This document shows, one piece after another, positions 1,007 to 23,665 of a stretch of 31,576 nt of DNA. The position numbers and the translations under genes are program-made. Numbering within the stretch: the stretch's first letter is position 1; the number at the start of each line of letters is the position of its first letter. The notes under the pieces are model-generated. The model made no database searches, had not been told where the DNA came from, and worked only from the letters and a program-made list of their open reading frames with translations. Origin of the DNA: a virus. Location of the stretch: the IMG/VR virus record IMGVR_UViG_3300032293_000203, positions 1-31,576 of that record; one strand, given 5' to 3'.

Positions 1007-1037
1007 AAGCCCTAGGCTCACCCCCTAGGGCTTTTTT
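1007..1037 (+). terminator. Intrinsic terminator after the amidotransferase operon
   Basis: AGCCCTAGG (1008-1016) pairs perfectly with CCTAGGGCT (1024-1032) across a 7-nt loop, and the arm runs straight into a T6 tract (1032-1037). It ends the transcription unit at 10-977 and insulates it from the terminase operon. Confidence 0.9.
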
Positions 1038-1217
1038 GTTGCCCACGAATCGAGAGCGAGCCAGAGGCTCGCAGTAATCACCTGTTCCCTCCCAAGGTGC
1101 TCGTTCAGTAGGTGGGGGGGAGGGGGCTGCCCGCCCCTTCGGGGCGTCCAGACCATTGGGTCCGCCCAGTCGGTTCAAAAAAATTTACACAGTCGCCCGG
1201 TAACGGAAGGAGTTCCT

Positions 1218-1304
1218 GTGGGTTTCCCGGGGATTAAAAGGAGTAGGGGACGGGGGGAAGGCACCAAAGGTTACGCTGGTTTAGTAGAAAGATTCCATTT
1301 ATGA
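1218..1304 (+). CDS. Possible 28-residue basic leader peptide
   Basis: A strong Shine-Dalgarno AAGGAG (1207-1212) lies 5 nt before a GTG that opens a 28-codon frame ending in TGA at 1302-1304, just before the terminase small subunit. The peptide is Arg/Lys/Gly-rich. The ribosome site is one of the best in the window, which is the only reason to list it. It could be a leader peptide or chance in purine-rich DNA. Confidence 0.2.
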   Translation: MGFPGIKRSRGRGEGTKGYAGLVERFHL

Positions 1305-1320
1305 TTTATGGATGTAGATG

Positions 1321-1350
1321 TTGACAAAACTGGGCAGTATTCCCTACACA
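1321..1350 (+). promoter_or_regulatory. Candidate sigma70-like promoter for the terminase operon
   Basis: A perfect -35 hexamer TTGACA (1321-1326) is followed after 18 nt by TACACA (1345-1350), a poor -10. The ATG at 1356 lies 5 nt downstream, so a transcript from here would be nearly leaderless. This favours the start at 1356 over the in-frame ATG at 1308. Confidence 0.35.
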
Positions 1351-1355
1351 GGGGT

Positions 1356-1901
1356 ATGGGTGAACGAGCTGCCATAAGGAAGGAAGTGGCCAAGGCCATA
1401 GTGGCGGCTGGGGAGAATGGCCGTAGCATTGAGGCGCGTCAGCCTGAGCGGGCGGCTAGGTTGTTGGAGTTGATGGCTGAGGGTAGGAGCTGGAAGAGCA
1501 TTGTGCGTGACGAGGGGGTGGATTGGTACACGCTGGTGGGCCTGCGGGCTCGGCATAAGGGCTTGATAGAGAAGCGGAAGGAGATTGTGGCGCAGGATGC
1601 GATGGAGTTGATTGAGGGGGCGAGGATGCTTCAGCAGGAGAAGATGAAGATGCTGGCGGAGGATGAGGGGGCGCTCAAGCGAGTGAATATCAGGGACTTG
1701 GCTATGAGCTACGGCATTTATGCCGATAAGTTCTTTATGGCCACGGACGGCAATCGGGTGACGATTGAGCACAAGGGTGGGGCTCCTTCGATTGAGGATG
1801 CCCGTAAGGCAATTGAGGAGGCTAGGGCCAAGCTCAGGGCTGACGCTTTGGAAGTTGTAACCAAGAACGTAACCAATGAATCACCTAGTAGCGGGAGTTA
1901 A
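1356..1901 (+). CDS. terS: Putative terminase small subunit
   Basis: A 181-residue, highly charged, mostly helical protein encoded just upstream of the large terminase. Residues about 42-68 (EGRSWKSIVRDEGV then WYTLVGLRARHK) look like a helix-turn-helix DNA-binding unit, followed by a long helical oligomerisation-like segment and a charged C-terminus, the usual order for TerS. It would recognise phage DNA and load it onto TerL. An in-frame ATG at 1308 would add 16 residues, but that segment has AT-rich third positions unlike the rest and covers the TTGACA box, so I chose 1356. The assignment rests on position and architecture, not on a diagnostic motif. Confidence 0.6.
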   Translation: MGERAAIRKEVAKAIVAAGENGRSIEARQPERAARLLELMAEGRSWKSIVRDEGVDWYTLVGLRARHKGLIEKRKEIVAQDAMELIEGARMLQQEKMKMLAEDEGALKRVNIRDLAMSYGIYADKFFMATDGNRVTIEHKGGAPSIEDARKAIEEARAKLRADALEVVTKNVTNESPSSGS

Positions 1902-1911
1902 GAGCTTGGCA

Positions 1912-2643
1912 ATGTGGGACCAGTGGCAGCAGAAGGTTGCTGACGCTGGAGACCAGTATGCGAAGAGCCCTGTCTTTGTGGAGCAGGACAGCCAGAGGCC
2001 CGAGGAGTTTGAGGAGGTGGCCAACTGGATTGATGGCTGGGACGAACCTCCGTTCGACTTCTATGGCCGGTTGCGGGATGTCAACCACGGCGCTAGGCCT
2101 GTGCCCACCAGTGCGTTTTGCCACGTTACTCGTCAGTGGCTAGACTCCAACACTGAGCTTTGGTTTCTGAACAAGCACGGGCTGCTTAGGCGCAACTTCT
2201 TGGACATTGGAGCTGGGTATGGGCGGCTGGCCGTGAGTGCGTCCCCCTACGTCAGGGACTACTGGTGCACGGATGGGGTGGAGGTGAGTCAGCAAGTCTG
2301 TCGGATGTACGTTAAAACGTACGTCCACACTGAAAACGTTCAAGTAATGAGTCCTGAGCAGCTCTTGGAGCAGAAGCCCTTGCTGGATGTGGCGGTGAAC
2401 ATCCATAGCTGGAATGAGTGCTCGCTGCATTCTATTGCTTGCTGGCTGGAGATATTGAAGCTGCTCAAGGTGCCGTTCCTGTTCACGGTGAGTCACGGGC
2501 AACTAGCCAACAACAACGCCTATCTCTGCCATCAGGACGGCCACCCCTCCTACCTGCCCCTCTTGCAGGACAAGTATGATTTGGTGGAGGAACTGACGCT
2601 TGGGATGTCCTGCCACCCCTACGCTTTGTGGAAGGCTAAATGA
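1912..2643 (+). CDS. SAM-dependent methyltransferase (class I)
   Basis: A 243-residue protein with a classic Rossmann motif I, FLDIGAGYGRL, about 95 residues in, and a later strand LLDVAVNIHSWNE resembling the motif IV region, followed by a helix and FLFTVSHG. No DNA-methylase catalytic motif (DPPY, NPPY or PCQ) is seen, so a small-molecule, sugar or protein target is more likely than DNA. The start at ATG 1912 has AAGAG 7 nt upstream; an in-frame ATG at 1876 without a good ribosome site would overlap TerS by 26 nt. It sits between the two terminase genes and ends in an ATGA overlap with TerL, so it is co-translated with the packaging motor. The target is unknown. Confidence 0.75.
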   Translation: MWDQWQQKVADAGDQYAKSPVFVEQDSQRPEEFEEVANWIDGWDEPPFDFYGRLRDVNHGARPVPTSAFCHVTRQWLDSNTELWFLNKHGLLRRNFLDIGAGYGRLAVSASPYVRDYWCTDGVEVSQQVCRMYVKTYVHTENVQVMSPEQLLEQKPLLDVAVNIHSWNECSLHSIACWLEILKLLKVPFLFTVSHGQLANNNAYLCHQDGHPSYLPLLQDKYDLVEELTLGMSCHPYALWKAK

Positions 2644-4253
2644 GCCTAGTTTGGCAGAAGCACGAAATTCTCAAGGCCCCCTCCGACAAGGAGTTGGTCC
2701 AGATGGAGCCCGAGGATGTCCTCAAGCTCCACGAGCTTTACCATTCGGCCATCGCCAATAGCAGGCGCGATCCCTACCGTTATGGGTGGGACCTGCCCCA
2801 CTGGAAGAAGGCGGAGGAGATGCTGGCTAGGCGCAAGACGCTGCTCCTGCTAGGGGCCAACCGTAGCGGCAAGACAATGTTTGGGGCCAAGACGGTGGTG
2901 AAGGCGGCGCTGGAGAACGAGGAGAGCCTCCTGTATTGCTTCAGCCAGAATCAGGAGACTTCCATTCTGGTGCAGCAGAGTGCCGTCTACACCTACCTGC
3001 CGCTAGAGCTGAAGAAGAAGGCTACGGAGGAAACCCACTACATCAGCTATTCGATGCAGAATGGCTTTGCTGGGAACAGCTTGGTGCTGCCCAACCGTAG
3101 CCGCATCATCTTCAAGACGTACAGCCAGTATCAGCAGAACCAAACCATCCTTGAGGGTATGGAGCTGGGGAGCCTGAGCCCCAAGTGGACGAACGTCGGG
3201 GCGTGGTGCGACGAATACCTGATGGGGATGGAGATGCTGGACCGGCTCTACTTGCGTTTGGCCACCCGTGGGTCTAAGCTCCTGTTGACGTTCACTCCCA
3301 AGGACGGGACGACGGAGACGGTGCGCTACTACTTGGATGGGGCAAAGACCATCGAGTCGAGGCGGGCTGAGCTGCTGCGGAACATCGAGGTGCCCTACCT
3401 TCAGGAGAACGAGCCCAAGAACACAGGCATCGTCTACTTCCACAGCAAGGACAACCCTTGGTCTGGGTATGCCAGCATTGCCGAGCAGTGTAAGGCAAAG
3501 GGCGACGACGCCTACACGCTCACTGCGGCCTATGGCGTGCCCACCAAGACGCTCACCACACGCTTCCCGGGCTTCTCCCTTGAGGTGAACGTCATTGAAC
3601 CGGAGAAGATACCCAAGAAGGACTGCACCCACTATATGGTGCTAGACCCTGCGGGGCGCAAAAACTGGTTTATGTGCTGGATTGTGGTCGATCCCAGCGA
3701 CACTTGGTACGTGGTGGCTGAGTGGCCCGACATCAATGTGGGTGAGTGGGCTGAAATGCGGGGCGGAAAGTGGATGAATGGCCCCGGTGCCAAGGGCTTG
3801 GGGTATGGGATAGGCGACTATGTGGCCCTGATTGGCCAGATTGAGCAGGACTTGGGGCTGAAGCCCCTTGAAAGACTCATCGACCCCCGCCTAGGTGCCC
3901 AAAAGTACCAAACCCAGAACGGCGCGTCGTCCATCATCGAGGATTTGAGCGACAATGCGTTGGTGTTTGTGCCCGCACCGGGGTTGGACATCGAGGATGG
4001 GCTTCAGGCGCTGCAAACCAAGATGGCTTACGACCGCAAGAAGCCGATGGACAGCGTCAACCGGCCCCGCATCTACATCAGCAACCGCTGTCAGAACATC
4101 ATCACGGCCATTCAGGAGTATACGGCTGAGGGCGGGCTGGATGAGGCGTGGAAAGACCCCGTGGATGTCCTCCGGTATGCTGCCATAGCCGACATTAGGC
4201 ACATTTCCCCCGGCCAGATGGCCATAACCCGCCCTAAGAATGCATTCTACTAA
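2640..4253 (+). CDS. terL: Terminase large subunit (ATPase-nuclease)
   Basis: A 537-residue DNA-packaging motor. The N-terminal ATPase has Walker A GANRSGKT (72-79), Walker B ending VGAWCDE (186-192) and a coupling segment LLLTFTP (214-220). The C-terminal RNase H-like nuclease shows acidic residues in YMVLDPAG (D336), LIDPRLG (D415) and KDPVDVLRYAA (D507/D509). Length and domain order are normal for the family. It docks on the portal, translocates DNA into the prohead and cuts concatemers. It starts by ATGA overlap with the methyltransferase, and its last 14 nt overlap the next gene. Confidence 0.95.
   Translation: MSLVWQKHEILKAPSDKELVQMEPEDVLKLHELYHSAIANSRRDPYRYGWDLPHWKKAEEMLARRKTLLLLGANRSGKTMFGAKTVVKAALENEESLLYCFSQNQETSILVQQSAVYTYLPLELKKKATEETHYISYSMQNGFAGNSLVLPNRSRIIFKTYSQYQQNQTILEGMELGSLSPKWTNVGAWCDEYLMGMEMLDRLYLRLATRGSKLLLTFTPKDGTTETVRYYLDGAKTIESRRAELLRNIEVPYLQENEPKNTGIVYFHSKDNPWSGYASIAEQCKAKGDDAYTLTAAYGVPTKTLTTRFPGFSLEVNVIEPEKIPKKDCTHYMVLDPAGRKNWFMCWIVVDPSDTWYVVAEWPDINVGEWAEMRGGKWMNGPGAKGLGYGIGDYVALIGQIEQDLGLKPLERLIDPRLGAQKYQTQNGASSIIEDLSDNALVFVPAPGLDIEDGLQALQTKMAYDRKKPMDSVNRPRIYISNRCQNIITAIQEYTAEGGLDEAWKDPVDVLRYAAIADIRHISPGQMAITRPKNAFY

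Positions 4254-12865: not shown

Positions 12866-12869
<4 letters not shown>
12579..12869 (+). CDS. Small hypothetical protein before the collagen fibre
   Basis: A 96-residue protein with an N-terminal segment rich in Arg, Trp and Gly ([20 protein letters not shown]) and a Ser/Thr-rich C-terminus. It starts behind a leaderless-type box and ends in an ATGA overlap with the giant fibre gene, so the two are probably co-expressed. A fibre adaptor or chaperone role is conceivable from the linkage. I do not recognise it. Confidence 0.65.
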
Positions 12870-16656
<3,787 letters not shown>

Positions 16657-16660
<4 letters not shown>

Positions 16661-20068: not shown

Positions 20069-20785
20069 ATGCCGCTCCTATCCACCGCAGGCGCAGCCGG
20101 GGCCCGAGCCTTCGGGCTGTTTGGTATCAATGCAACCGTAGCTGGGTTCATATCGGCTACGGGCGGGACGATCACCACTAGTGGGAATTACAAATACCAC
20201 ACATTTACGTCTTCGGGGACGTTCTCCGTAACTTCGGCTCCCTCGGGCAGGACGATTGACTACATTCTCGTTGCTGGCGGAGGTGGCGCCCAAACTGGGG
20301 CAGGTGGTGGCGGCGGTGGCGTCATTGAAAGCCTAGTTCAATCCATTAGTTCTGGATCGTTTGCCGTCACCATTGGAACTGGTGGCGCAGTGGGGGCATC
20401 TGGGAACGACTCTGTTTTTAACGGTAAAACTGCCATTGGTGGTGGCCGTGGCAATTCTTCTGGCTTAGGTATTTCTGGTGGCTCGGGCGGCGGTGGTTCA
20501 ACTGGGGGCGGAGCCGCACTTCAGCCTACTTCTGCCTCTGGCGGATATGGCCACGCTGGAAACATAGCCAATGGCGGTGGCGGCGGAAGCGCAGCCGCAA
20601 GCAACAACAGCGGAGACCCCTACTTCAGCGCCACCTTCAATGAGAGCTATGCCGAGGGCGGGCCTACTGACACGATTCACGCAGGCCCCAGTTTTGCGGG
20701 CTCTGGAGGTGGGCACAACAGCGATACCAGCACTTCCTATGCTGGGGCGAATGGCGTCTTGGTTGTTCGCTACCTCTATCAATAA
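20069..20785 (+). CDS. Glycine-rich tail adhesin
   Basis: A 238-residue protein with an N-terminal beta region (YKYHTFTSSGTFSVTSAPSG then IDYILVAGGGG), followed by long Gly runs with Ser, Ala and Asn (GGGGGGVIE, GGSGGGGSTGGG, NGGGGGSAAAS) and a C-terminal strand NGVLVVRYLYQ. This is the 'glycine-rich domain' fibre type whose Gly runs pack as polyglycine-II helices and whose loops bind receptors. It sits behind a leaderless-type promoter box. The stop overlaps the nozzle gene start (TAATG). It is probably a distal tail tip or receptor-recognition protein. Confidence 0.75.
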   Translation: MPLLSTAGAAGARAFGLFGINATVAGFISATGGTITTSGNYKYHTFTSSGTFSVTSAPSGRTIDYILVAGGGGAQTGAGGGGGGVIESLVQSISSGSFAVTIGTGGAVGASGNDSVFNGKTAIGGGRGNSSGLGISGGSGGGGSTGGGAALQPTSASGGYGHAGNIANGGGGGSAAASNNSGDPYFSATFNESYAEGGPTDTIHAGPSFAGSGGGHNSDTSTSYAGANGVLVVRYLYQ

Positions 20786-22965
20786 TGCCTAGGTACTCCA
20801 AATACGGCACCCTCGACACGATGGTGCTAGACGACGGGGATGTTGGCTTCGCCAGCTTCAACAACCGCAAGCGCCCAGATCAGCTTGCCCAAGGGGAGTT
20901 GGCTGAGAGCATCAATGGCCGGATGGACCTTGAGGCCGCTTGGCAGGTGCGTAAGGGGCTGGACAGTTTTGGCCCTACGCTGACGGCCAACACGGAATCC
21001 ATTCGACTCTTAGACCCTTCCGTGTGGAAGCTGTATGCCACCGTGAACATCAGCTCCGCCACCCGCTCTTCTGCCACCGTCACGATCACCACCTCGTCAG
21101 CGCACAGCTTCAGCAGCAACACACTGGTGAGTGTGAACGGGGTTAATGGCACCATCGACCCCACCGGGAATCGGCTCATCACGGTGACGGGAGCCAGCAC
21201 CTTCACGTTCACAATCACTGGCGCTACTGGCAGCGAAACCTATGCCCTGAGTAGCGCCACTACGTCGGCGCCTAAGCTCTCGGCTACGGCCACCACTGGC
21301 GTTTACGGCTCCTGCCTGTTCTCGGACCCGTCCAGCAACAACGCCAACTACATCATTCGGGCGACCAACAAGGAGGCCATTGCCACGCCTGTGGGCGGAG
21401 GCGCTTCCACCACCATCGCCTACCCTGCCGGGGTGACCATTTCGAGCGCTGTGGAGCTGCTCCAGTGCTTCGACAAGGTGCTCCTGTTCCGCGAGGGGCA
21501 GGCTGCACTGGAGTGGAATGGCGTGCTTTCCGGCGCACCGGCGTTCACGGCTGTGGCCAGCGGCATCTACACGCAGCCGGTGTATTTTGACGCCGCCGTC
21601 AACTGCCAGATCAGCAATGGCGTGGTAACCGTTGCCGCGACCAACCACGGGCTGGCCGTTGGCGACAAGGTGTACGTCATTGACCGTGGAACCTCTGAGC
21701 TGGAGGAGGGCGATGTGGCCTACACCGTGGGCGACATTGGCGATGGCAACGCCTTCTACTTCTACGCTCAGGTGCGGGATATGGCCCCCAACTCGGTGGT
21801 CCTGTCCAAGAAGGTGAGCAGCGGGAAGGGCTTCATTCATATGCCCTCCCCGAGCTGGGGCTACTATCATCAGCGTCGGCTATGGGTTCCCTACTGGTAC
21901 GAGCCAGCCGCTGGGAGCTACACCAACCGCAATCGCCGGGACGAGATCATCGCGTCTGACATTCTCGACAGCAACACCTACGACCGGATTCAAAACCAAT
22001 ACCGCATCACGGCGGGCATTGCCGACTATGTGGTCGGCTTGCAGGCGTTTGCTGAGGACAATCTGCTGGTGTTCAACCGCAACTCCATCCACTTGGTGCG
22101 CGGCATCAGCGGTGCCATTTCCGACACCAGCGTCACTGCCATCACCTCGGAGATTGGGTGCGTGGCTCGACGGTCCATCCTTCAGGTGGGCAATCAGGTG
22201 CTGTTCCTCTCCGACAACGGCGTGTACGCAGCCGCTTTTGGCGACCTCTACAACTTGAGAGGGGCTGGCGTGCCGTTGTCGGAGCCTATCGCGGGCACCA
22301 TCGCACGCATCAACAAAGACTACGTCGGAAACGCCGTGGCGGCTTATTTCAACAACCGCTACTACCTTGCCATCCCGCTGGATGCGTCAACGACGAACAA
22401 CGCCCTGCTCGTCTACAACTTCCTCAATCAGGGCTGGGAGAGCGTGGACGAGGTGAGAGCGTCTGGCTGGGCCATCGACAACCTCATCGTGGGCGAGAAC
22501 AATGGACTGGCGTCTATGTTCACAATCAGCCCATCCGGCTCTATCCACAAGGTGGATGGCCGTGAGGACAACAATGACAATCTTTCCCTATTTGCTGGCG
22601 TCCCGTCCGTTGCCTATCCCATCTACTCTAAGCTAACGACGAGGCAATACAGCTACGGGACGATGGAGCGTAAGAAGTTCTCCACCTACGAGTTGCACAT
22701 TGAGTCGTCCAGCTCACAGGCGTCGAATGCTGGCATTGCGATTGAGGTGGAGAACCCAGACTCAACCACCTCTGCCGGAACCATTTCCGACCTGCTTGGT
22801 GGCTTTTTGAATGTGGGCGAAGACGCCTCTGTGCGTGGTAGAATCGGCAACAAGCGCGGATATGGCGCCCAGCTTGCAATCGTCCCGACTGCCGGACGCC
22901 CCAAGCTGCGAGCCGTAAAGGTGCAGGCTTCCACCACAGACCCAACGGCCACTTCCAAGACCTAA
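20785..22965 (+). CDS. Tail nozzle (tubular protein B-like) candidate
   Basis: A 726-residue, beta-rich protein. The N-terminus (FNNRKRPDQLAQGELAESIN, then GRMDLEAAWQVRKGLDSFG) follows the 'large gene near the start: lists of parameters, then Arg-Lys-Gly' pattern of T7 gp12-like nozzle proteins. Repeated blade-like segments (for example DNLLVFNRNSIHLVRGI, QVLFLSDNGVYAAAFGD, RYYLAIPLDAST) suggest a beta-propeller body. It would form the end of the short tail through which DNA exits. Length is right for the family. Alternative: another large tail-knob protein. Confidence 0.62.
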   Translation: MPRYSKYGTLDTMVLDDGDVGFASFNNRKRPDQLAQGELAESINGRMDLEAAWQVRKGLDSFGPTLTANTESIRLLDPSVWKLYATVNISSATRSSATVTITTSSAHSFSSNTLVSVNGVNGTIDPTGNRLITVTGASTFTFTITGATGSETYALSSATTSAPKLSATATTGVYGSCLFSDPSSNNANYIIRATNKEAIATPVGGGASTTIAYPAGVTISSAVELLQCFDKVLLFREGQAALEWNGVLSGAPAFTAVASGIYTQPVYFDAAVNCQISNGVVTVAATNHGLAVGDKVYVIDRGTSELEEGDVAYTVGDIGDGNAFYFYAQVRDMAPNSVVLSKKVSSGKGFIHMPSPSWGYYHQRRLWVPYWYEPAAGSYTNRNRRDEIIASDILDSNTYDRIQNQYRITAGIADYVVGLQAFAEDNLLVFNRNSIHLVRGISGAISDTSVTAITSEIGCVARRSILQVGNQVLFLSDNGVYAAAFGDLYNLRGAGVPLSEPIAGTIARINKDYVGNAVAAYFNNRYYLAIPLDASTTNNALLVYNFLNQGWESVDEVRASGWAIDNLIVGENNGLASMFTISPSGSIHKVDGREDNNDNLSLFAGVPSVAYPIYSKLTTRQYSYGTMERKKFSTYELHIESSSSQASNAGIAIEVENPDSTTSAGTISDLLGGFLNVGEDASVRGRIGNKRGYGAQLAIVPTAGRPKLRAVKVQASTTDPTATSKT

Positions 22966-22966
22966 A

Positions 22967-23665
22967 ATGCCCATCCTAGCCACAGGCAACACGTTCGCCA
23001 CGGGCGACAGCGTTACGGCCACGACGCTGAACAATGCCGTAAACAACGCCACGTTTGCAGCCAACGCGGTGGACAATGTCACGACGCAGCTTTCTGGCGG
23101 GGCAGTGATTGTTCGGGATGGGGGAATCACCCCAGCTAAGCTTTCTACGGGCGCCCCCACTTGGAACACCAGCTCGCAGCTATTTGCTGGGGCCATTGAG
23201 GACACTCCCATTGGCCTCAATGGGCCGTCTGACGCTGGATTTACGAACCTTTCCGCTTCCGGCACCACCAAGGTGTACGAGATGATCGAAAGGGCCGCTA
23301 TTTCGGGTACAGGGCTGTCTGGCACCGTCAACTTCAATGCCCTTGATGGCGCTGTGGTTTACGTCACTGCCAGTGCTACGGGCAACTGGACCATCAACCT
23401 GCGCGGGGACGGATCAAACACCCTGAACGCTATGATGGCCACGGGTGACTCGTTCACGTTCGTGGTGCTGGCCACGCAAGGCGCTACGGCCTACCATCAG
23501 ACCGGAATGCAAATCGACGGCAATAGCGTGTGGCCGATTAAGTGGGCTGGCGGCACGGCCCCGGCGGCTGGCAACGCCTCCTCGATTGACGCATACAGCT
23601 TCGTGGTGATTAAGACCGCATCTGCTACGTTCACCGTTCTGGCCAGCCAGACCAAGTTTGCCTAA
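22967..23665 (+). CDS. Tail fibre protein
   Basis: A 232-residue protein with a typical fibre N-terminus (ATGNTFATGDSVTATTLNNAV), then VRDGGITPAKLSTGAPTWN, a phrase common in phage fibres, and a beta-rich C-terminal head. The GNTFATGD element likely attaches to the tail. It follows the nozzle gene by one base. The frame ends at a stop just before the cupin gene ATG. Receptor specificity cannot be predicted. Confidence 0.7.
   Translation: MPILATGNTFATGDSVTATTLNNAVNNATFAANAVDNVTTQLSGGAVIVRDGGITPAKLSTGAPTWNTSSQLFAGAIEDTPIGLNGPSDAGFTNLSASGTTKVYEMIERAAISGTGLSGTVNFNALDGAVVYVTASATGNWTINLRGDGSNTLNAMMATGDSFTFVVLATQGATAYHQTGMQIDGNSVWPIKWAGGTAPAAGNASSIDAYSFVVIKTASATFTVLASQTKFA

Follow-up and report, generated by a model that had tools for sequence, protein, structure and literature searches.

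An oriented G-tract/A-tract site of fixed layout at the upstream edge of replication or terminase gene blocks in phages that probably infect Verrucomicrobiota

The window, that is, the whole stretch of 31,576 nucleotides analyzed here (the 31.6-kb virus record IMGVR_UViG_3300032293_000203 of IMG/VR), opens at its left end with a GATase-type gene (10-816), followed by a terminator-like site, an intergenic stretch and the gene of the small terminase subunit (TerS). After TerS come a gene without family match, the gene of the large terminase subunit (TerL), a portal-like protein, called so by its relatives, and an SU10-type capsid protein. The gene between TerS and TerL (1876-2643) encodes 255 aa with no PHROGs or Pfam match; it has relatives in 15 of the 80 loci fetched for comparison, being present in some loci with a distant TerL and absent from some closer ones. 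Farther to the right, positions 12866-16660 encode a very long protein of collagen-like GPTGPTG repeats, probably a tail fibre. The features around the intergenic stretch are the following:

1007-1033, plus strand: intrinsic-terminator-like site, closing the upstream (GATase-type) gene block
1056-1099, no strand assigned: left flank with lineage-specific dyads (1056-1072 and 1079-1099), outside the conserved site
1114-1126, plus strand: G7-A-G5 tract, left landmark of the site; G6-10 [A/C/T] G5-6 in 75 unique relatives
1132-1146, plus strand: variable spacer, here holding a TTCG-type hairpin, which is replaced by a different one or missing in relatives
1155-1168, plus strand: ATTGG motif and short dyad TGGGT-CC-GCCCA; spacing of ATTGGT taken from an open scan
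1177-1192, plus strand: A/T-tract AAAAAAATTT, then ACACAG, right landmark; often CAAA or CAAT in relatives
1249-1276, plus strand: second block GACGGG..AAGG..AAAGGTTAC, visible on inspection in some members of the window's family, unscored
1321-1350, plus strand: candidate promoter TTGACA-N18-TACACA, called from sequence, 3' of the conserved site
1356-1901, plus strand: TerS (phrog_1482, E 5e-4, plus relatives); reading frame open from 1308
2640-4253, plus strand: TerL (phrog_2)

The terminator expected just before position 1038 is present at 1007-1033 as a 10-bp stem followed by a T-run, in a region where such a scan gives 2.0 chance matches. As the TerS alignment starts at residue 12 or later in 59 of 74 relatives (from the best 80 of 485), position 1356 (residue 17) is a more likely start than 1308. 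A counterpart of the candidate promoter, TTGACA-N18-TACAAT, was found in G030, G031 and G032, and the window's own copy falls below the threshold of the promoter scan. The 28-codon leader with a GTG start that had also been suggested (1218-1304) does read as an open frame. In L005, L014 and L015, however, it is disrupted by a 1-nt shift, so that it is probably non-coding, and a leader peptide was rejected.

The original prediction singled out the stretch 1038-1355 for three consecutive inverted repeats, which would suit a structured RNA, for its G-runs and for its place ahead of the terminase genes. Two of the repeats hold well, 1056-1072 as a perfect 7-bp dyad and 1132-1146 as a G/C hairpin with a TTCG-type loop, while 1079-1099 is weak (5 bp around an 11-nt loop). 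Results of the comparison with related phages, however, went against their conservation, as the hairpins are lineage-specific and other lineages carry other dyads. The sequence GCGAGCCAGAGGCTCGC of the first dyad was found in L001 and L006-L010; L002, L004, L005 and L015 have other left flanks, although L002 and L004 share 99% TerS identity with the window. Conserved hairpins were consequently rejected. Folding of this stretch is only mildly better than chance, with z -2.3 for the RNA of 1038-1210 (4 of 200 shuffles fold as well) and z -1.3 for the DNA of 1038-1355 (10 of 100 shuffles). The mild excess in 1038-1210 speaks for a structured RNA or hairpin element, against which stand the lack of hairpin conservation, the DNA fold and the absence of matches to Rfam families at gathering thresholds across the window. 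Comparison of relatives thus appears to have largely refuted this explanation, which we regard as very improbable. By eye, dyads of the type CATTAG-N5-CTAATG lie left of the G-tract in L045, L048 and L055, and of the type TGAGACA-N5-TGTCTCA in G011, G031 and G032; these repeated, lineage-specific dyads resemble early-control operators.

The truly non-random part of the stretch is G7AG5 itself, present once in the window (1114-1126) where 0.01 copies are expected. It holds 12 G in 13 nt, with further G-runs following in many relatives and none close to G7AG5T in phage C75C1. The quadruplex proposed from these G-runs is possible, but we infer that G7AG5 alone is short of guanines for a three-tetrad intramolecular structure; an RNA:DNA hybrid quadruplex is conceivable by analogy with the one described at CSB 2 of mitochondrial DNA (PMC5027508).

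We then looked at relatives upstream of TerS. A TerL search of viral contigs gave 485 relatives, of which the best 80 were fetched and 74 had a TerS match. In 52 of these 74, a tract G5+[ACT]G4+ precedes TerS by more than 100 nt. Among the 22 in which it was not found, ten have less than 230 nt of upstream sequence and twelve have more, and four of the twelve (L042, L044, L048, L061) carry a degenerate tract; that of G009 is likewise degenerate (GGGAGGGGAGGAGGGG). Contigs with 99% identical TerS differ in the left flank, and the G-tract, ATTGG and the A/T-tract persist. Phage C75C1, with a TerL 40% identical, has G7AG5T at 23095, upstream of CDS0028, which occupies the position expected for TerS; it is the only record found carrying the site in the collection of cultured phages, which was searched by BLAST. 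Nine further phage records that were fetched had no G7AG5T, and MW202524 has G5AG8 at 38516. As for the neighborhood of the site, GATase, gamma-glutamyl cyclotransferase and amidoligase genes lie near it in several relatives (at 10-816 in the window, at 20149-22830 in C75C1, and in G007 and G030), and L056 has a tRNA-like sequence directly downstream, about 100-160 nt past the G-tract. In G029 (L179-L181), TerL matches are found at both ends of the 40.2-kb contig, so this assembly may wrap with diverged copies.

The distance between the two landmarks is nearly constant. In 75 unique relatives, preselected for A5 at 35-75 nt, the A-tract starts 47-51 nt past the G-tract in 74, and in these same preselected copies the left-flank positions hold at most 0.5 bit each. 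This count left out L107, L130 and L156 (spacer 34), L111 (spacer 33) and L114 (spacer 42). The first three are probable members of group 5 (described below), considering that their A/T-tract is spaced as usual and that a DnaB-like gene lies downstream, while L111 and L114 were treated as chance. An open scan with G7AG5T-N20..50-ATTGGT returned 65 contigs, the spacer being 28 in 26 and 29 in 34 of them (60/65), with a TerS or TerL match downstream in 44. Scanning with G7AG5T alone gave at least 120 matches, and 113 unique copies with 110 nt on either side were analyzed: among the matches listed, a six-base A/T-tract lies 40-58 nt 3' of the string in 83 of 113, versus 12 of 113 on the mirror side. 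All of 22 records, selected because they contain the string, have exact G7AG5T once and the reversed string never. Positions 1114-1192 of the window are therefore one member of a widespread, oriented cis-site consisting of G7AG5T, about 48 nt, an A/T-tract and CAA, located at the upstream edge of a gene block with replication and/or terminase genes. Judged from these sequences, it is far more conserved than a reader of the window could know. It is a real control site and apparently an undescribed one, as no earlier description was found in the open-licence literature searched.

The genes that follow the site differ between groups of phages, and it is not tied to TerS. In group 1, the window's own family, the site is upstream of TerS, and in group 3 (L213, G035, G052; TerL of about 420 aa) it precedes a putative TerS and TerL. 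In group 4 (G037, G044, G045, G046, G049), the TerL ORF starts between 0.07 kb before and 1.35 kb after the G-tract. Elsewhere the site precedes a late tail-type gene, as in group 2 (G022, G024, G038), with TerL 10-13 kb further, or replication initiation and/or DnaB genes, as in group 5 (G033, G034, G036, G043, L195, L199, L210/G039, L244). In group 5, the 3' end of an upstream ORF coincides with the site or lies just ahead of it, and the replication genes follow the site after 0.4-2.8 kb, an initiation gene in L199, L210 and L244 and DnaB in L195 and L210; TerL is about 6 kb past the site in G033, G034, G036 and G043 and at the far contig end in G039. G040, G042, G047 and G048 gave neither a TerL match nor, close to the site, a replication match. 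The fetched part of G025 shows no site, and a search among phages with the DNA-binding protein of L191 found no match.

The original prediction was right about a conserved cis-site upstream of the terminase genes. A cos or pac site fits its position in many relatives, while the positions in groups 2 and 5 count against one. If the site were a packaging start (pac, or a cos or DTR junction), recognized or cut by terminase, the late end would be packaged first and the early genes would be the last in and the first injected. Its proximity to TerS/TerL in groups 1, 3 and 4 is consistent with this (it is close upstream of them throughout the window's family and the TerL-213 group and in most TerL-235 members), as is the location of TerL on the strand of the site in all 26 genomes or contigs with TerL found. 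In many genomes, moreover, the site marks an early/late boundary: of the 11 complete or near-complete genomes in groups 1 and 2, 8 have a nearest upstream mechanical ORF that points leftward, away from the rightward late block, with G007, G022 and G029 as exceptions and the window itself also having rightward genes upstream. Contig ends give a mixed picture. Ten contigs (L018, L027, L045, L046, L062, L067, L069, L071, L074, L078) begin at the site, their starts lying from about 5 nt before to 65 nt after the G-tract start as judged against relatives, and L045 (38.4 kb) both begins and ends in G-runs. Among the matches listed, 9 contig ends of 37 whole open-set contigs fall within 250 nt of the site, versus 2.5 expected; phiM5, whose capsid protein is 30% identical, has an annotated terminal repeat just before TerL. 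However, the starts scatter over about 70 nt, which also fits read loss or trimming at G-runs, contig-end distances overall do not differ from uniform (KS p 0.18, among the matches listed), and eleven contigs with overlapping ends have these elsewhere than at the site. The site is also far from TerL in groups 2 and 5, which weakens a TerS-bound pac as sole explanation, and no terminase gene was seen near the chromosomal copies described below. We consider a packaging start possible and incline to doubt it.

A start of transcription or translation would explain the constant position at the operon start whichever gene leads, and how chromosomal copies could exist as well: the site would be a promoter, a place of anti-terminator loading or the leader of a rightward operon, read by host RNA polymerase or another host-conserved factor. 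Among the matches listed, 66 open-set cases have an A/T-tract; in 25 of them an ATG-started ORF of at least 60 aa begins 50-160 nt past the G-tract, and in none does an ORF start in the first 50 nt. Likewise among the matches listed, 25 starts fall at 50-150 nt, versus 10 starts of leftward ORFs on the other side. Against this stand the TTGACA-N18-TACAAT promoter, which is 3' of the site in part of the window's family, the lack of any hexamer pair seen in common between groups, and the single copy per genome, unusual for a promoter class. We hold a transcription start to be unlikely.

We also searched bacterial and archaeal genomes. The pattern with AAAATTT was found in 16 genome contigs, 8 of which belong to Verrucomicrobiota, including one Kiritimatiellaeota; the other 8 (Magnetococcales, Enterococcus, Neolewinella, Flavobacteriaceae, Methanoregula, Oscillospiraceae, Deltaproteobacteria, Geobacter) were set aside, several having other spacings and looking like chance. 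Each of nine genomes checked has exactly one G7AG5T and no reversed copy. In G059-G062, the single copy lies in ordinary chromosomal DNA of these assemblies, near cstA in G060, G061 and G062 and between ychF and a flagellin-like gene in G059, and G057 has a copy similar to the chromosomal ones. In G192, a single Verrucomicrobiota contig of 3.75 Mb, the site sits in a prophage-like stretch with the gene order of group 5, having an initiation gene at 0.35 kb and a primase/helicase at 2.4 kb downstream. Phages bearing the site thus probably infect Verrucomicrobiota, and recognition by a host factor is plausible given the 8 of 16 genome hits in this phylum and the chromosomal copies of G059-G062.

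A universal host element found no support: 73 of 288 genomes in the phylum contain bare G6AG5T, reversed matches are numerous as well, and only 4 of 49 inspected copies have an A/T-tract at the right distance. The G6AG5T-type pattern plus A/T-tract was found in 4 of 103 genomes of one order, and a relaxed pattern in 11 of 286 genomes of one class, versus 10 with a reversed match. A role at the chromosome terminus or origin was unsupported in G287, where weaker look-alikes lie at neither GC-skew switch. Four of these were seen in the 400 kb sampled (at about 1.94, 2.37 and 2.83 Mb, two of them 1.4 kb apart), near small genes that are repeated and proteins whose C terminus reads VPDSGSTAALLGAG..ARRR, and they may form a separate, dispersed repeat family.

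The fixed layout recurs in five or more phage groups with terminases that have little in common, and in some chromosomes as well; whatever reads it must be something these phages share, most simply the host. In the same sense, the fixed spacing between G-tract and A-tract, together with its recurrence in phages that differ in their replication and terminase genes, suggests that the site is read by Verrucomicrobiota host machinery and not by one phage protein. Our best guess, weakly held and with the packaging and transcription starts as close rivals, is a replication-initiation (priming) site of the G-tract/R-loop type. A transcript crossing the G-tract would remain paired with its C-rich template strand as an R-loop, which may or may not include a hybrid G-quadruplex. 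Unwinding, cleavage of the RNA or hand-over of the primer would then occur at the A/T-tract, and loading of a DnaB-type helicase would take place there.

Replication initiation is supported by the group 5 context and the order of site, initiation gene and primase/helicase that G192 shares with it, by the chromosomal copies, by the fixed layout and spacing, by the single, unreversed G7AG5T in the 22 selected records and by the likeness to mitochondrial CSB II; the A-interrupted G-tract that marks an R-loop or CSB II-type priming site is there in the sequence. Against replication initiation, and a DnaA-dependent origin in particular, DnaA-like boxes (TTWTNCACA) are not enriched, with 1 within 600 nt of the site in 17 genomes, which is background density. 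Also counting against an origin are the sparse upstream promoters and the annotated initiator gene of C75C1, about 4 kb from the site; a scan for rightward promoters of the sigma-70-like type, covering the 700 nt before the G-tract, gave a match for only two (C75C1 and G006) of 11 complete or near-complete genomes. The order of the two G-runs, opposite to that in CSB 2, and the G287 look-alikes at neither GC-skew switch weigh against it too. The cumulative GC-skew minimum, a measure confounded by gene direction, coincides with the site for only 3 genomes out of 11, and strand-wise GC3 skew showed no clear sign of replication. The fuller proposal, namely a host-recognized site common to unrelated Verrucomicrobiota phages and some chromosomes that starts replication via an RNA-DNA hybrid and not via DnaA, as a bacterial counterpart of CSB II, we judge quite unlikely. 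In practice, the site can mark phages with a probable Verrucomicrobiota host, and its roughly 85 bp are a precise, small target for origin, packaging and transcription assays.

Several known systems resemble the site in part. Cos sites of the lambda type and pac sites of the P22 type lie close to terS, as does the phage site in many members; unlike them, it can be 6-13 kb from the terminase genes and is also chromosomal. The direct terminal repeat of phiM5 (MF074189) is comparable in being an annotated genome end that immediately precedes the terminase gene, and the capsid proteins are related, but phiM5 has no G5+[ACT]G4+ tract. In R-loop origins of the ColE1 type, a G-rich RNA hybridizes to a C-rich template and an A-run lies at the primer end; the phage site would likewise have a G-rich RNA stretch over a C-rich template and has an A-run, whereas an RNA II-like transcript and homology are hypothetical for it. 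As described in two reports (PMC4649627, PMC5027508), CSB 2 (CSB II, or D310) of human mitochondrial DNA is a G-tract interrupted by an A, mostly with 12-15 guanines and polymorphic in length, at which a hybrid quadruplex ends transcription, the transcript ends near downstream T-tracts and RNA-DNA hybrids are linked to replication priming. G7AG5 of the phage site is also an A-interrupted G-tract; the shorter G-run comes first in CSB 2 (G5-6AG7-9) and the longer first in the phage site, the distance to the A/T-tract differs, and an R-loop, an RNA polymerase and a promoter are hypothetical for the phage site. If the R-loop origin were true, a priming mechanism of mitochondrial type would be linked to bacteria and their phages.
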